From the NCBI GenBank assembly GCA_030266015.1, contig JAJDHD010000007.1:1-64000 (forward strand): DNA of 64,000 bases. Reading direction: 5' to 3'. Made by a program: the position numbers and the translations under genes. This document shows, in pieces, positions 51,225 through 58,873 of this stretch (within the stretch, counting starts at the first letter, position 1; the number at the start of each line of letters is the position of its first letter). This DNA is from Christensenellaceae bacterium OttesenSCG-928-K19 (GTDB lineage: Bacteria; Bacillota; Clostridia; Christensenellales; Christensenellaceae). The notes below the pieces were generated by a model. The model was not told the origin of the DNA. It saw only the letters and a program-made list of their open reading frames with translations, and ran no database searches.

Positions 51225-54200
51225 TTACCCTTTCTGCCTCCTTGCGCGCCAAACAAATGCCGCGCCGATGCTGCCGGCAGCCACAACGGCAAGAAGCACA
51301 AACAAAAGCAGCCTGCTGTCGTCTCCCGTTTTTGGCGATGATGAATTCCGCGCTGCCGCTTTCGGATCGCCATCATTTGGGGAAAGCTCTTGCCCACCGC
51401 CATCCTCCTGCGCGATCTTGTCGTGGGCAAACTTTACGGAAAAGGCAACCGCCGGATCGTGCGCCTCTGTGAATTCAGCGTTCTTGGAGCCTTCGCTGCT
51501 TAGGCGGTATCCTGCCGGCGCTTCTATATGCGCGATGATGTATTGCCCGGCAGGTAGCCCCTGATAAGAGAATGTGCCATCTTCCCCGCTTGTCATAAAA
51601 GCACCGTAATAAAGGTTTTCCTCTGTAAATTCCGTTGTGCCATGGGGGAATATGCCAATTCGCGCGCCTTTAAGCCCCATGCCGGCCACATCGTGTGCCA
51701 CCCCTTCAATCTTATAGGGCGCGTATTGATTGGAAAACGTGGTTGTGCCCTGCCCATCTGTCAATGTGGTGGTGCCTGTAGAATTAATCGAAAAACTATG
51801 CTTCAACAGAACGGTGTTCTTATGGTCGCTCCCATAATCCGGGAAATAGTTTTCCGGTGTTTTTGTTTCGGAAAAATAATAATCGCCGTAGATAAGCTTT
51901 CCGTTTATAAGGCAAGCCGCGCCGCGCGCATTTTTCCCATAAAGCTTATTTTCCCCGTTCGAATCAACCGCGCTTAACACGTATTTCCCTTCAGTTGCCG
52001 CATCCTCTATAAGATAGGCAACAGCATTGCCTGACGCTTTATCATACACTGTAAATTCCGCGCCCGAAAGCGGGTCATCTGTTTTTGCATCCACCTTTAA
52101 AAGTTGCACGTCACCTGTTTTGTAAAAGTTTTTGATTGTATAGCCTGCCGCCGCGCTACCCGAGAGAAGCCCAGCGTCTCCGCCCGTGATGGTATAACTA
52201 TAATTCCCCGCCGCGTCCTTTGTCACAACAACAGTCCACTCCGCAGCCGGCAGTTCATACGCAAGGGTTGCGCTACCCTCTTCTTTTAACGTATATGTCC
52301 CCGCGTCTACCTTGGTAAACGAAACAATACCATTCCCAGAGCTCACGGCAGTTTTTTGGTGTTGCGTTCCTGTGAGCGAAAGCGTAAACTCCACCCCCGC
52401 AAGGCCAATGCCGTCTTCTGTCGTCTTTTTAAATTCCACTTTCCCCTTGGGATCGTTTTGCAGCTCCAGCATATGCCCGCGCACCGTGGAATTGAATCCC
52501 ACTTCCTCTACATTTGGCAATCCTCCCGTATAAGGGGTCTGGTCTTTGAAGTAGACATAGGTGTAGGTGCCCGTCGGTGCAACATAGCCTGCAGGCGCAG
52601 CCGTCTCTTCTATCCTGTATAAGCTGTCCTTCTTAAGGAACATAAATGTCGCCTTGCCGTTTTGCGCTGTTACACGGATTTTTTCAGTATCCGAATTTAC
52701 CGATCCGTCCGCGTTTGCTTCCACCAGCGTAAATTCCGCACCGGCAAGCGCAAACAACGGGTTTTGCCCATCCATATTACATGTAGCCTTGCTGATTGAT
52801 AAATAGGGCGAGCTGCAGGCCATGCAATAATCGTCCAGGTTAAAGCTTTGCGCACCCGAAGCCTGCACATCACCTGTGCCCTGCTCCCAGCCCGCGCCAT
52901 CCGAAACCTCCGCGCCGTTTTTCATGTCTGATGCCGCAGCGGTATCACACACATAAGCGTTGAATTCCACCACTAGTGTTTTATCTTTATACGCGTCCGG
53001 GATGGTAAATTCAAATCCGCCAAATGCGACGCTTGTGCCTGTCTGTGCCTTGATTGTGTTGGTAATATCCGTGCCGGTAGTTGTGCCGCCCGAGGCGGTC
53101 ATGTCTACAGCGCTTACCTTAAACGTATCCTTGTCCATCTCAAAGATATCCCTTAGGCTATCCGCCACAGTAAAGCCGCCCATGTCGGTGTTATGGCGGT
53201 TTACCACAATCTTCCACGAAACACCCGAAGCATTCAGCCGGTCTGCGCCATATGTTCCCACGTTGCCCGTGTTCACCTTGAAAAACGTCCCGCTTTTGGC
53301 GATGTGCGGCAGCGTGCGGTTGCTGTTTGCGGTAGCTTTGGTGTTTGCCGCAATAGGCGTGCCATACACAGTTCCCTCTATTTTTGCTTCATTTGTGATG
53401 GTCGTCGCCTGCGCAGAAAAGAAATCGTGCCTGTAATTTTCATCTGAAAATTTGGTGGTGAACTCAAGCACAAATGTATCGGACGTTGTGTTAGGCACGC
53501 CAAAATCTTCAAATACTATCTCCATCTCATTGGACAGATATGGTTTGCCATCAATGTTTGCCGTATTCTCTTGGGTGATTTCAAACGCAAGGTGCGCGCT
53601 ATCCTGCATCGTAACATCCTGCTTGGTTACGCCTCCTGTCGGTGCGCTCGTTATAATGGAGCTATCCCCTCCCTGCGGCACAATCGTCTCAACTACCGCG
53701 CCCGTATTGTCTTTCCGCGTTATTTTAATAAGGTCTTGGAGCGTTGTGCCCGGAGGAAGCGCGTCTGTCATCACCGCGTCCTTTATAGGCACATTATTCG
53801 GATTCACTGTTACTGTCCAGCCTACGGTCTTTTTCTCGTAGTTATAGGTTGTAGCGCTGCCGCCAATCTTATTGTCCTTCTGTATCAACGGGCTGGTGAC
53901 TTTGTTTTCACCTGTGGCATCATCCTGATTTATAAGGGTACCCTGAGGTGCCGCCTGCACTTTTGCTGTGTTTTTCACAGAAACATTGCTGGCATTTTTG
54001 CCCAGCACCGCACCGTCTACAAGCTTTGTATCTATCGTCGCTTTGTAGTGTTCACCCGCGGCGATGCTCCCCAGATGTATTTTGAGCGTAATATCATTCC
54101 CCCCCGTGCTAAAGCAGTAATAATCATTTGCTCCTCCGGGGTCTGATGCGTCATAATTAATTACCGTACGGCTTCCTACTGATCCAAGTGAAGTCAGCGC

Positions 54201-56414
54201 GATTGGTGCATGTGAGGTATACAATAAAAACTCCTGCTTGGTGTTATCGAGCGTGTCTACAATAACAACTTCTGAAAGCGCAGTCTGGAACTGGTTGATG
54301 GTAAACTCCCAGCTTAATATTTGTGTGGCTGGATCATAGCCCGCGCCTTTTTTGGTCACCCAGCGATATTCAGTGGACACATTCTTGCCAATGTTAAAAT
54401 CGAAATTATCAGGCAGCGGGCCGTTGCCGTAATACATCTCGCGGTACACAAGCTTTGCAATATTTGTGAGTGAAGCCGGCTTTTGTGGATGGTCGTAATC
54501 TTTGGTAACCACCGTCGAATAGGTGATATCCACATTTTTTCCGATAAGGCCCGTCGCAGGGATGATAAGCACCATTTTGTCTTCAGCCGGAAGCGAAGCA
54601 TTTGATTTATAGGCATAATAACCCGCCTGCGTTGCTCCAAGGCTTTGTAATATCGCCATAAAAGCATCCGGCGTCTTAAGACTGGAATTTTTAATGTCGT
54701 CATATGTGGGCGGCGTTCCGCCAAAATTAAGTCCGGTAATCGGCATCGGCGTTTCATATGCAGCCGTATCTTTGTTGTATATTTTCACATCCGAAGTGAG
54801 ATCATACGTATGGTCGGCAATGTTGATTTCGTCGATAATATAGGCCTCAACGACACGCCCGCCCGAGCTGGAAAGGCTAATCGTCCAGTCGTAATACCGG
54901 CTATTTGTGGGCCGCGCCGCTCCGTCTTTTGAAAAAAACTTCGCATTTATTGCCGTTGATACTTCGCTGGATTTTTTAACGTTTTTGGCGCCTGCTTCGT
55001 CGCGGTTCAGCTGTGCAGTATTTTTGTAGGTTTTTTTTATGCCGTTTTTCATATAGCTTTCGCCCAGCTCATCTTTGAGACGGGTTTTTAACACAAATTT
55101 CGCGGATGTCGTATCTGTGCCGTCCCCAAACGCGTTTTCTACAAATTTATAGTTGATGATGTTTGTGGGATTGTTTTGCGCATCTTGATAGGCGCTGGGC
55201 GGAACAGGCATTCCGGAAACCGCGCCGTTCAGGAAAACCTCCGCAGATTCTATGACGAGATCTGCATCCAGTACGTCTTTGAAAAATTTGCCGTCCAGCT
55301 TGCCCGTATTGGCAGCGTCAATTTCCACTACATATTCAATTTCTGGGCTGTTTGCCACCGCGGGCGCGCTTTTTACGATGTCATAGTTTGTTGCCGGGTC
55401 TGTCACCTCAATGGGCGGTCCTTCAAAGTTGAACGACACGCTGCCATCCGAGGCAATGCTGCCGATCGACGCTGTGGTGCCCGCCACATGCACTCCCGCT
55501 GCTGCCAGCGTAAAGGAATTCTCCAGCTGTACGGTCGACCGCGAATATACGCAGTTGTCAAACGCACCGGTAAAAGTGATGACATTTCCCGACTGTGTCC
55601 AACTGTATTCTCCTATTTTGGCAGGCGGCGCCTCGGTGTCCATCAAATTGCCCGATGCCGTAACACCGGAAATATCCACTTGGGTCGCGTCAAACTTGCA
55701 TGTGAACCGAATCTTTGGCAGCCGCACATCTGTGCCAAGCCCGTTCAAATAAGCATCATAGACTGCTTTTGTGCCATGGACGCTCTGGTCGTCGACACCG
55801 GCGGCAATGGCATCATCAAGCGTCTGTCGTGTGGCCGCGCTGTCAAGATGTACCGTGTATTTAATATTGAGCGCTGAGGTGGTGGGATTAAATCCTGTCA
55901 TATCAAAGTTGTATTTGGAAAATTTGTCGGCGGGTGAATAAGAGCCTGGCGCGTTCGTAGCCATATTGCCGCCTGCCGCCATCGGCACAAATCCCCCCGA
56001 TTGCTGCACTGCCACCCCTGCTTCCTGCTCTACCACATCGGGCTCTGTCAGCAAAACACTCATCTGCGGCAACGCCACACCTTCCGCCAGCGCATATCCT
56101 GCGGGAAGAACCGCAGTAAACGTGTATCTGCCCGGCATCGCCGCATCATAGGTTTCACACCCCCATGAAACGCCCTCCACCACAACACTGCCCGACTCTG
56201 CCTGTGCAGTGAGCTGCCCAGGGAAAGGAAGCGCCGCAGCTTCCGTTCCCGTCACGGCCTGTAGCTCCTCTGGTTCTGCCGGAGACATCTCCATCAGCGT
56301 AACTTCGGTCGCTTCGCCGTCGCTTACATTCGCTTGCGTATCCACGGCCGCGCTTATACTGGAAAACATCAACAGGGCAACCAGGACAACCGCAATAATT
56401 GTGATTTTTTTCAT
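51225..56414 (-). CDS. Giant cell-wall-anchored adhesin with Cna-B/SpaA domains
   Basis: 1,729 residues. Signal peptide (first about 22 residues), an N-terminal region of about 150 residues, a long array of repeated beta domains resembling collagen-binding/adhesin modules (about 160-1,190; recurrent segments such as KSAPAVANSPEIEYVVEI and NKIGGSATTYNYEKKTVGW), then four SpaA/Cna-B type domains (about 1,195-1,625) with the ETxxPxxY pattern (IEETAAPAGY, SETKTPENY, HIEAPAGY). The end has SPKTGD (from 1,693), a hydrophobic helix and RARRQKG: a sortase sorting signal with Ser in place of Leu. No sortase gene is nearby. AT-rich leader with a long hairpin. Confidence 0.88.
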   Translation of the reverse strand: MKKITIIAVVLVALLMFSSISAAVDTQANVSDGEATEVTLMEMSPAEPEELQAVTGTEAAALPFPGQLTAQAESGSVVVEGVSWGCETYDAAMPGRYTFTAVLPAGYALAEGVALPQMSVLLTEPDVVEQEAGVAVQQSGGFVPMAAGGNMATNAPGSYSPADKFSKYNFDMTGFNPTTSALNIKYTVHLDSAATRQTLDDAIAAGVDDQSVHGTKAVYDAYLNGLGTDVRLPKIRFTCKFDATQVDISGVTASGNLMDTEAPPAKIGEYSWTQSGNVITFTGAFDNCVYSRSTVQLENSFTLAAAGVHVAGTTASIGSIASDGSVSFNFEGPPIEVTDPATNYDIVKSAPAVANSPEIEYVVEIDAANTGKLDGKFFKDVLDADLVIESAEVFLNGAVSGMPVPPSAYQDAQNNPTNIINYKFVENAFGDGTDTTSAKFVLKTRLKDELGESYMKNGIKKTYKNTAQLNRDEAGAKNVKKSSEVSTAINAKFFSKDGAARPTNSRYYDWTISLSSSGGRVVEAYIIDEINIADHTYDLTSDVKIYNKDTAAYETPMPITGLNFGGTPPTYDDIKNSSLKTPDAFMAILQSLGATQAGYYAYKSNASLPAEDKMVLIIPATGLIGKNVDITYSTVVTKDYDHPQKPASLTNIAKLVYREMYYGNGPLPDNFDFNIGKNVSTEYRWVTKKGAGYDPATQILSWEFTINQFQTALSEVVIVDTLDNTKQEFLLYTSHAPIALTSLGSVGSRTVINYDASDPGGANDYYCFSTGGNDITLKIHLGSIAAGEHYKATIDTKLVDGAVLGKNASNVSVKNTAKVQAAPQGTLINQDDATGENKVTSPLIQKDNKIGGSATTYNYEKKTVGWTVTVNPNNVPIKDAVMTDALPPGTTLQDLIKITRKDNTGAVVETIVPQGGDSSIITSAPTGGVTKQDVTMQDSAHLAFEITQENTANIDGKPYLSNEMEIVFEDFGVPNTTSDTFVLEFTTKFSDENYRHDFFSAQATTITNEAKIEGTVYGTPIAANTKATANSNRTLPHIAKSGTFFKVNTGNVGTYGADRLNASGVSWKIVVNRHNTDMGGFTVADSLRDIFEMDKDTFKVSAVDMTASGGTTTGTDITNTIKAQTGTSVAFGGFEFTIPDAYKDKTLVVEFNAYVCDTAAASDMKNGAEVSDGAGWEQGTGDVQASGAQSFNLDDYCMACSSPYLSISKATCNMDGQNPLFALAGAEFTLVEANADGSVNSDTEKIRVTAQNGKATFMFLKKDSLYRIEETAAPAGYVAPTGTYTYVYFKDQTPYTGGLPNVEEVGFNSTVRGHMLELQNDPKGKVEFKKTTEDGIGLAGVEFTLSLTGTQHQKTAVSSGNGIVSFTKVDAGTYTLKEEGSATLAYELPAAEWTVVVTKDAAGNYSYTITGGDAGLLSGSAAAGYTIKNFYKTGDVQLLKVDAKTDDPLSGAEFTVYDKASGNAVAYLIEDAATEGKYVLSAVDSNGENKLYGKNARGAACLINGKLIYGDYYFSETKTPENYFPDYGSDHKNTVLLKHSFSINSTGTTTLTDGQGTTTFSNQYAPYKIEGVAHDVAGMGLKGARIGIFPHGTTEFTEENLYYGAFMTSGEDGTFSYQGLPAGQYIIAHIEAPAGYRLSSEGSKNAEFTEAHDPAVAFSVKFAHDKIAQEDGGGQELSPNDGDPKAAARNSSSPKTGDDSRLLLFVLLAVVAAGSIGAAFVWRARRQKG

Positions 56415-56767: not shown

Positions 56768-56796
56768 TTGCTATTGCCTTTTACTTGATATATAAT
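56768..56796 (+). promoter_or_regulatory. Promoter of the MATE leader
   Basis: -35 TTGCTA (56768-56773), 17-bp spacer, -10 TATAAT (56791-56796). The start site would be near 56,803, just before the leader-peptide ribosome binding site. Confidence 0.75.
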
Positions 56797-56814
56797 TGTT
56801 CTGAAGGAAATCAC

Positions 56815-56859
56815 ATGAAACTTTGTATTGCCCACGCTCCATTCAAATGGTTACGATGA
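56815..56859 (+). CDS. Leader peptide MKLCIAHAPFKWLR
   Basis: A 14-codon frame (ATG 56815, TGA 56857-56859) preceded by GAAGGA with seven-base spacing, at the very 5' end of the predicted MATE transcript. Its codons overlap the 5' arms of two leader hairpins (GCTCCA 56836-56841 with TGGAGC 56869-56874; GATGAG 56855-56860 with CTCATC 56887-56892). This is the layout of ribosome-sensing leader peptides that control resistance genes by attenuation. Confidence 0.6.
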   Translation: MKLCIAHAPFKWLR

Positions 56860-56950
56860 GACATTGTCTGGAGCAAAGAAAAACACCTCATCGGCATAAT
56901 TCATTCTAGAAAAGCTTTCTGGAGTTTCTTGCCGTGATCCGAAAAGAATG

Positions 56951-56985
56951 CCATGGACAATGTCTTGTCTATGGTTTTTTATTTT
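56951..56985 (+). terminator. Attenuator terminator before the MATE gene
   Basis: CCATGGACAA (56951-56960), TGTC loop, TTGTCTATGG (56965-56974, one G-U pair), then TTTTTTATTTT. It stands between promoter (56,768) and gene (57,008). GACATTGTC at 56860-56868 is exactly complementary to GACAATGTC at 56956-56964, so an antiterminator pairing can replace the terminator. Confidence 0.78.
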
Positions 56986-57007
56986 GCAAAGTTTGGAGTG
57001 ATTTACA

Positions 57008-58354
57008 TTGAAAAATAGTTTGTTAAGCGGTTCTCCGCTTTCTTCGTTGGCGCGTTTTGCAGTGCTCTTGCTTTTTGCAGTGCTCTTGCTTTTTGCAAAT
57101 CTGTTGCAGAGTGGCTATAGCGTTGTTGATATGATCATTGTAGGACAATTTGTTGGCAGTACAGGAATCGCCGCAATTAGCAGTGCATCCCGAATGGGAT
57201 ATATCATACAATCTGTCTGTACTGGAATTACCACAGGCGGGAGTGTTTTGGTTGCGCAATATGCCGGAGCAAAAAACAAAGAAAAGCAAAGTGAAACGAT
57301 AGGCGCTCTATATACAATTTCCGCCATAACAGCACTGATATTGACGATCAGTGGTTTATTCGTTTATCGCCCTGTGTTAACCGCGATGCAAGTGCCAACC
57401 GAAGCCTATCGATATGCAACCGATTACATGCAAATAATATGCTTGGGTACTGTCTTTGTTATCGGGTATAACGCCGTTTGCGCAGTCATGCGTGGCTTAG
57501 GTGATTCCAAAAATGCGCTTATATTCGTTGCGATTGCATCCATAAGTAATGTTTTTTTAGATCTCTTATTGGTTGGTGCTTTGGGGCTTGAGACAAAAGG
57601 GGCAGCAATAGCAACCATCGCGTCACAAGGAATTTCTGTTGGCATTGCTTTTATCTATATTAAAAAGAAACAATCTGCTTTCAAGCTTGAGTGGAAAAGA
57701 GTTCGCCTTGTGTGGAAAAGTATGTGGGCAATCCTGAAAATTGGTTTGCCTACCGCCTTGCAAATGACCATACTCAATTTTTCTTATCTCATTGTCGCCG
57801 GACTTTTGAATGGTTATGGCGTAATGATTGCTGCGGCAGCCGGGATCGGTTTGCAGGTAAACACATTTGCAGCCATTCCCGTTTGGGGCATTGGACAAGC
57901 CGTTACTGCAGCCACAGGCCAGTGCATTGGTGCAAACGATACACAGCGGGCAAAGCAAATGGCAAAAACGGGAATCCTGTTGGCGTTGATAATACAAGCT
58001 TGTGTAATTATATTGATACAACTTTTTGCTAAGCAGATTATTGCGTTGTTTGACTCCACCCCGGAAGTGATCCGCGAAGGGGTATTATACTTGCGCATCT
58101 GCTGTTCCATAAACAGTTTTGCATATGTCATCATGTATATTATCAATTCGTTTGCCACTGGCACGGGGCATTCACTTTTTACTATGGCTAACTCAATATT
58201 TCAATCCGTGGTGTTGCGGATATTGATGGGCATTTGCTTAAGCATTGCATTGGGGCATATTGGAGTTTACTGGGGCGAAAGTTTATCCCCGCTTCCATGT
58301 GCTTTAATTGGAATTGTTTATTGGTCGAAGGGGAGGTGGGCAAAATCTATATAA
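57008..58354 (+). CDS. MATE-family multidrug exporter
   Basis: 448 residues, about 12 hydrophobic helices. Family features: NLLQSGYSVVDMIIVGQFVG in the first helix region, GITTGGSVLVAQYAGAK, RGLGDSKNAL, and the mirrored second half starting LKIGLPTALQMTI. These proteins expel drugs or cationic dyes in exchange for sodium or protons. TTG start after TTTGGAG. The first helix contains an 18-base tandem duplication (57,059-57,094) that adds six residues. Base composition is more AT-rich than the neighbours. Confidence 0.9.
   Translation: MKNSLLSGSPLSSLARFAVLLLFAVLLLFANLLQSGYSVVDMIIVGQFVGSTGIAAISSASRMGYIIQSVCTGITTGGSVLVAQYAGAKNKEKQSETIGALYTISAITALILTISGLFVYRPVLTAMQVPTEAYRYATDYMQIICLGTVFVIGYNAVCAVMRGLGDSKNALIFVAIASISNVFLDLLLVGALGLETKGAAIATIASQGISVGIAFIYIKKKQSAFKLEWKRVRLVWKSMWAILKIGLPTALQMTILNFSYLIVAGLLNGYGVMIAAAAGIGLQVNTFAAIPVWGIGQAVTAATGQCIGANDTQRAKQMAKTGILLALIIQACVIILIQLFAKQIIALFDSTPEVIREGVLYLRICCSINSFAYVIMYIINSFATGTGHSLFTMANSIFQSVVLRILMGICLSIALGHIGVYWGESLSPLPCALIGIVYWSKGRWAKSI
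57059..57094 (+). repeat. 18-bp tandem duplication inside the MATE gene
   Basis: GCAGTGCTCTTGCTTTTT occurs twice in a row, in frame, giving AVLLLF-AVLLLF at the start of helix 1. Family members have one copy of this stretch, so the second copy is probably a recent slip. Confidence 0.9.
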
Positions 58355-58642: not shown

Positions 58643-58873
58643 ATGGACAACGATAAAACTAAAAACAATTTATCTGACGAACAACTAAACGAAGCCAACG
58701 GCGGTTACCAAACACCACCGTCTCACCACAAGGAAAAACAAATGTATTGCTATAACTGTGGCTATTCCTGGAAGGCAGCAACGCTGATGAGAAAACACTG
58801 CCCTAAATGCAATTCTACAAATGTTGGGACAGAAATAAGGCCGAATCATGGGGAAGGATCGGGGATTACCTGA
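58643..58873 (+). CDS. Zinc-ribbon protein with double-glycine leader
   Basis: 76 residues. The N terminus (LSDEQLNEANGG, ending at Gly21) matches the bacteriocin-type leader consensus cleaved after Gly-Gly by peptidase-containing ABC exporters. The rest holds two CxxC pairs (YNCGYSW and CPKCNS), a zinc-ribbon pattern, and a polar C terminus. It may be exported or processed; no C39-peptidase transporter is nearby. AAGGAG precedes the ATG. Function unknown. Confidence 0.65.
   Translation: MDNDKTKNNLSDEQLNEANGGYQTPPSHHKEKQMYCYNCGYSWKAATLMRKHCPKCNSTNVGTEIRPNHGEGSGIT

Follow-up and report, generated by a model that had tools for sequence, protein, structure and literature searches.

A probable leader-peptide attenuator upstream of a MATE transporter gene

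The leader that precedes a MATE family efflux transporter gene in the 64,000-nucleotide stretch of DNA analysed here (the window) is very probably a ribosome-mediated transcription attenuator, in which a ribosome stalled on a short upstream open reading frame (uORF) by a ribosome-targeting drug would switch the MATE gene on, and the uup RNA of Rfam (RF03060) would be the core of the same attenuator. Sequence comparison across related leaders establishes the parts of this attenuator (Table 1), their conservation and their covariation.

Table 1 Features of the window leader and the MATE gene
Feature	Position	Strand	Remarks
Sigma-70-type promoter, TTGCTA-17-TATAAT	56768-56796	+	10/12 consensus match
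Shine-Dalgarno AAGGA of leader ORF	56804-56808	+	
Leader ORF (uORF), 14 codons, MKLCIAHAPFKWLR	56815-56859	+	ATG 56815, TGA 56857-56859; end falls inside element B
Element A, 5' strand of anti-antiterminator stem S1, within leader ORF	56836-56849	+	
Hairpin S1	56836-56874	+	Sub-threshold RF03060 uup RNA match, 30.1 bits, E 3.6e-4
Element B, antiterminator 5' strand, GATGAGACATTGTC	56855-56868	+	14 bp with 56956-56969
3' strand of S1	56862-56874	+	
Element C, CTCATCG	56887-56893	+	Pairs with 56854-56860 (helix S2, proposed pseudoknot)
Hairpin within CGGCA/TGCCG stem	56892-56934	+	Present in predicted fold
Element D, terminator ascending arm and loop, GACAATGTCTTGTC	56956-56969	+	Partner of B
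Intrinsic terminator, 11-bp stem and T tract	56950-56980	+	
MATE family efflux transporter	57008-58354	+	TTG start; PF01554 160.9 bits vs 24.9; TIGR00797 206 vs 147.4

An earlier note on this DNA had described a promoter, a ribosome binding site, a 14-codon frame and an intrinsic terminator before the TTG start of the gene, all of which were located in the sequence. The predicted fold of the leader (-48.6 kcal/mol, z -2.67) contains the ORF-overlapping hairpin, the CGGCA/TGCCG stem-loop and the terminator. The note's exact complement, GACATTGTC/GACAATGTC, is present and belongs to a longer helix, B:D, of 14 contiguous pairs rather than 9, with two G-U pairs and a duplex energy of -19.4 kcal/mol, the best among 25 leaders. 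Two further elements fared unevenly: of the two hairpins drawn on uORF codons, the ORF-overlapping stem A:B is conserved but the more 5' hairpin is weak, and the 8-bp hairpin inside the CGGCA/TGCCG stem forms in the predicted fold but was not seen as a conserved element. The window leader has two of the features expected of a leader-peptide attenuator, a short translatable ORF with a Shine-Dalgarno sequence and mutually exclusive anti-antiterminator, antiterminator and terminator structures.

Relation to the uup RNA

The uup RNA is an orphan motif found upstream of ABC-F genes, which a 2024 review places beside riboswitches with no mechanism given (PMC11477304). In an Rfam scan at a relaxed threshold, the window hairpin scored below the RF03060 gathering cut-off of 36.8 bits, whereas four orthologous MATE leaders (L067, L068, L070 and L071) exceed it with 39.2-44.5 bits; judged from these scores, the window hairpin is homologous to the uup RNA but diverged, and it formally falls under the family cut-off. 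The alignment retains the features of the uup hairpin, a conserved GATGARRCRTTG loop and a GGAGC closing strand, and the hairpin lies on the same strand and upstream of a gene. That gene is a MATE transporter in the window rather than an ABC-F (uup) gene, and ABC-F genes stand behind other leaders of the set. The RF03060 model, at 48 positions, holds S1 only, and the uORF, S2, antiterminator and terminator fall outside it.

Leaders of this type precede several resistance-like gene families

RF03060 and a model built in this analysis (R1) were used to survey the order, class and phylum, yielding 37 analysed leaders from many Bacillota genera, which are designated here by L numbers. Low-scoring RNA matches without a B element (L107, L108, L110, L126, L132-L134 and L142-L144) were rejected as chance hairpins or terminators. 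The window gene belongs to the MatE family by its domain score, and a protein search recovered orthologues with 44-53% identity in related genomes, each with the same leader upstream; later ones (L100, L101 and L131) came from other families. Every MATE relative found with at least 44% identity carries the leader (10 in addition to the window), while no convincing leader was detected by model search at relatives with 39% identity or less.

Judged by their sequences, the genes behind the leaders are resistance-like: they comprise MATE clade I (n=11, window included), an unrelated MATE clade II with 27% identity to the window protein (n=4), ribosomal-protection-like ABC-F genes (n about 16), GNAT acetyltransferases (n=2), a single metallo-beta-lactamase-fold protein and a single pair of adjacent ABC exporter genes. 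This last pair lies behind the uup-type leader L158 (G1247:C45:500-5100). Several leader loci also bear mobile-element genes encoding a relaxase, a sigma-factor-like protein or a recombinase. At L091 (G023:C175) a complete MATE-type leader (MRLCIRISSAHSHR) has no transporter gene behind it and looks like an orphaned copy. Many relatives, unlike the window, carry a second hairpin with a T tract, placed after the attenuator terminator and ahead of the gene (e.g. L097, L106, L069 and L160:3296-3345).

Blast searches returned no match for the window leader or its MATE gene among plasmids, for the window leader among phages, or for the leaders of L098, L149, L151 and L113 among plasmids. Pattern scans of viral contigs gave matches that were mostly due to chance and inside coding sequence, along with one real leader, L113, located before a GNAT gene.

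The RNA helices are conserved and covary

The earlier note had held that homologous leaders lacking the peptide, the terminator or the complementary pair would count against its reading; among the related leaders the opposite was found, with the complementary pair, the terminator and the uORF kept. In stem S1, 93.8% of cells are paired, 5/10 pairs show two-sided changes, and the covariation was matched by 0/500 shuffles. For B:D, each leader's own duplex (-13.9 kcal/mol) is more stable than permuted combinations (-11.4+-0.43 kcal/mol), with 0/20,000 permutations as good, and two-sided cells number 18 against 7.4 in shuffled alignments (0/500), exemplified by GGCATTG with CAATGCC in L072 and GATGAAGCGT with ACGTTTCGTC in L085. 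These permutation tests keep base composition and not phylogeny, leaving shared ancestry partly in the comparison, and the C and D segments of the alignment used (A2) were picked by complementarity, which favours those structures.

Pairing of B with element C extends over at least 7 bp in 21/26 leaders, compared with 4.7 expected, and two-sided changes occur in 7/8 pairs, such as GGTGAA with TTCACC in L138. Since the S1 loop is the partner of C, the two helices S1 and S2 would stand in H-type pseudoknot order, and S2, which pairs 56854-56860 with C outside the Rfam model, probably makes the off-state a pseudoknot. A clear C element is missing in L068, L069 and L131, and L104 has no detectable terminator.

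The uORF is conserved in position and frame

A promoter-like site lies 18-44 nt before the uORF in 20/26 leaders, against 2.5 expected, and a uORF, defined as an ATG with a Shine-Dalgarno sequence within 75 nt and reading into the stem, is found in 32/37 leaders compared with 3.6+-1.6 in resampled sequence. The codon frame over the stem is constant in 31/34 leaders, a count made up of 29 assigned by script together with L069 and L091, whose stems were re-anchored after the script took the wrong CTC.

As for the leader peptide, conservation is confined to the reading frame across the stem and to a motif of the type [KR][LF]C[I], which lies six codons before the stem; the remainder varies. Lysine or arginine occupies the sixth codon before the stem in 17/25 leaders and Leu, Phe, Ile or Met the fifth in 21/26, and the MATE leaders share a [KR][LF]CI motif with synonymous changes (e.g. 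TGT/TGC, ATT/ATC, AAA/AAG and AGA/AGG). A codon-position test showed no synonymous bias in the remaining uORF codons; the peptide as a whole is therefore not constrained, and a generally conserved peptide was rejected. The macrolide +x+ arrest motif is likewise not generally present in the leaders.

Proposed mechanism and alternative explanations

From this architecture we infer stalling, drug induction, the direction of the switch and the pseudoknot. When no ribosome stalls, stem A:B, together with the loop-C pairing in what is probably a pseudoknot, would sequester B, so that the terminator forms and RNA polymerase halts before the MATE gene. A ribosome-targeting drug would instead stall a ribosome near uORF codons 3-8, at the KLCI motif or the alanines behind it, where the ribosome would cover A and leave B free to form the 14-bp B:D helix with the terminator arm and loop, permitting read-through into the MATE gene. 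The leading edge of a ribosome lies about 15 nt ahead of its P site, and a P site at codons 4-7 would place this edge over 56839-56850, that is, on A with B left free, while a ribosome finishing at the TGA codon would cover B instead. The uup RNA would be the core of the same attenuator before ABC-F and other resistance-like genes, poxtA included. Conservation of the uORF, the terminator and the complementary pair supports the attenuator proposed in the earlier note, but the stall need not lie close to the start codon, as the note had supposed; what would matter is a constant position with respect to the stem, before which the leaders have roughly 7-14 codons.

Left to fold freely, the window leader is predicted to form S1 (11 bp) and the terminator (11 bp); with A masked, the 14-bp B:D helix forms and the terminator is gone. 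Across the set, B:D appears in the minimum-energy fold of only 5/25 leaders with A partly masked, and not in that of the poxtA leader, because many of the terminators are very stable. As the terminator is often kept in these masked folds, switching would need kinetics or full coverage of A. The least certain part of the model is the inducer, for which peptidyl transferase centre inhibitors are the candidates.

The conservation of loop nucleotides and the probable pseudoknot, together with the placement of the uup motif beside riboswitches (PMC11477304), could also indicate that uup-type leaders are riboswitches whose hairpin or pseudoknot has a small molecule as its ligand, with an ORF that is only incidental. 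We consider this improbable, given that a Shine-Dalgarno-preceded start reading into the stem far exceeds its expected frequency and the frame is nearly constant, and that pairing with C and D accounts for the conservation of the loop. In the MATE leaders, codons for Cys and Ile hold fixed positions, which might also recall attenuators that respond to amino-acid or tRNA limitation, in which stalling at hungry codons (Cys, Ile, Lys/Arg) would regulate the pump; a run of a single codon is absent, however, most ABC-F leaders lack Cys, and the controlled genes are resistance-like rather than biosynthetic, making this explanation very improbable. Nor, despite the perfect match first seen being just 9 bp, do we give much credence to a constitutive intergenic terminator with chance complementarity and a MATE gene that uses a promoter lying 3' of this terminator: such an arrangement is hard to reconcile with conservation and covariation across 37 leaders before several unrelated gene families.

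Comparison with known attenuators

The ABC-F attenuators of cplR and vmlR likewise combine a short uORF, drug-induced stalling and a terminator upstream of a resistance gene (PMC10201436, PMC9226507), but their uORFs, MR[I/M] and MIN, have three codons, compared with the roughly 7-14 codons before the stem and the MATE target of the window family. Transcription attenuation with a leader peptide is also found at mefA and msrD, whose macrolide-responsive peptides, MTASMRLR and MYLIFM (PMC4335068, PMC10314930), differ from the [KR][LF]C[I] motif of the window family. Ribosome-mediated attenuation of an exporter is described for bmrB-bmrCD of Bacillus subtilis (PMC4191407), and L158 also precedes an ABC exporter pair; the target of bmrB is an ABC exporter and not a MATE transporter, and the likeness drawn here is one of mechanism. 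Relative to cplR, vmlR, bmrB and msrD, the window type has a different RNA sequence, a conserved stem and a second helix of its own, and a MATE target.

The mechanism class is already known, and its assignment to the uup RNA, to MATE genes and to poxtA appears new within the literature searched, with priority provisional: this literature yielded no paper on MATE leader peptides or poxtA attenuation, and the terms 'attenuat' and 'uORF' do not occur in the PoxtA structure paper. The proposed attenuator would provide a testable mechanism for an Rfam RNA family that lacks one and extend leader-peptide attenuation to MATE pumps.

A related leader precedes poxtA

A blast search of plasmids with the MATE leader L069 matched 121 plasmids, 117 of them from Enterococcus (76% over about 106 nt), and in 4/4 inspected plasmids poxtA follows the match at a distance of about 355 nt. 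The uORF of the poxtA leader begins with GTG and reads MLFGKFCIDFGSTQQYKTEHCVEP..., compared with MLYGKFCIDFGSTQVYTTKHCAEP... before the L069 MATE gene; the two are nearly equal (MLFGKFCIDFGSTQ... and MLYGKFCIDFGSTQ..., respectively). Its B:D helix pairs at 14/14 bp, and R1 detects the leader (31.3 bits, E 3.5e-7), which the Rfam uup model does not. The target here is an ABC-F phenicol/oxazolidinone resistance gene, as opposed to the MATE pump of the window, and the model predicts that poxtA, a transferable gene for resistance to last-resort antibiotics, has a drug-inducible leader.

PoxtA protection covers phenicols and oxazolidinones (PMC10201436), and linezolid stalls ribosomes with Ala, and less so Ser, at position -1 of the nascent chain (PMC8987054). 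The codons within the stem specify Ser-Ala/Val/Thr in frame 2, or Ala-Pro in the window and L106, so that linezolid-type stalls could hypothetically fall on A, although the identity of these codons is also fixed by the RNA stem itself. Were stalling at defined residues needed, the leader would in addition show how specific the inducing class of drugs is in where it stalls ribosomes. Behind the L069 MATE gene lies a gene for a Vat-like acetyltransferase (238 bits, where the cut-off of that family is 300); this neighbour would instead suggest streptogramin A. A bolder and rather doubtful extension of the model is that all these leaders, the uup RNA included, form one modular mobile attenuator family that has a pseudoknotted off-state, senses phenicol/oxazolidinone-type stalls at Ala/Ser/Thr codons in the anti-antiterminator stem and has been shuffled among MATE, ABC-F, ABC exporter and acetyltransferase genes, the poxtA leader having come from a clostridial pool.

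Surroundings of the MATE gene

Genes following the MATE orthologues are not conserved. Within the window MATE gene, an in-frame 18-bp tandem duplication (57055-57097; 2.4 identical copies) lengthens the first transmembrane segment by AVLLLF; it may be genuine or may stem from misassembly. Directly 3' of the gene, a small ORF (58643-58873) with a double-glycine-type leader (LSDEQLNEANGG) and a CxxC...CxxC tail possibly encodes an exported peptide. Positions 51225-56414 encode a divergent surface protein of 1729 aa that carries SpaA and collagen-binding-type domains, and at 59490-62575 genes for an MT-A70 methyltransferase and a MunI-type restriction enzyme adjoin a MobA/VirD2 relaxase gene, likely constituting a mobile element near the MATE gene.
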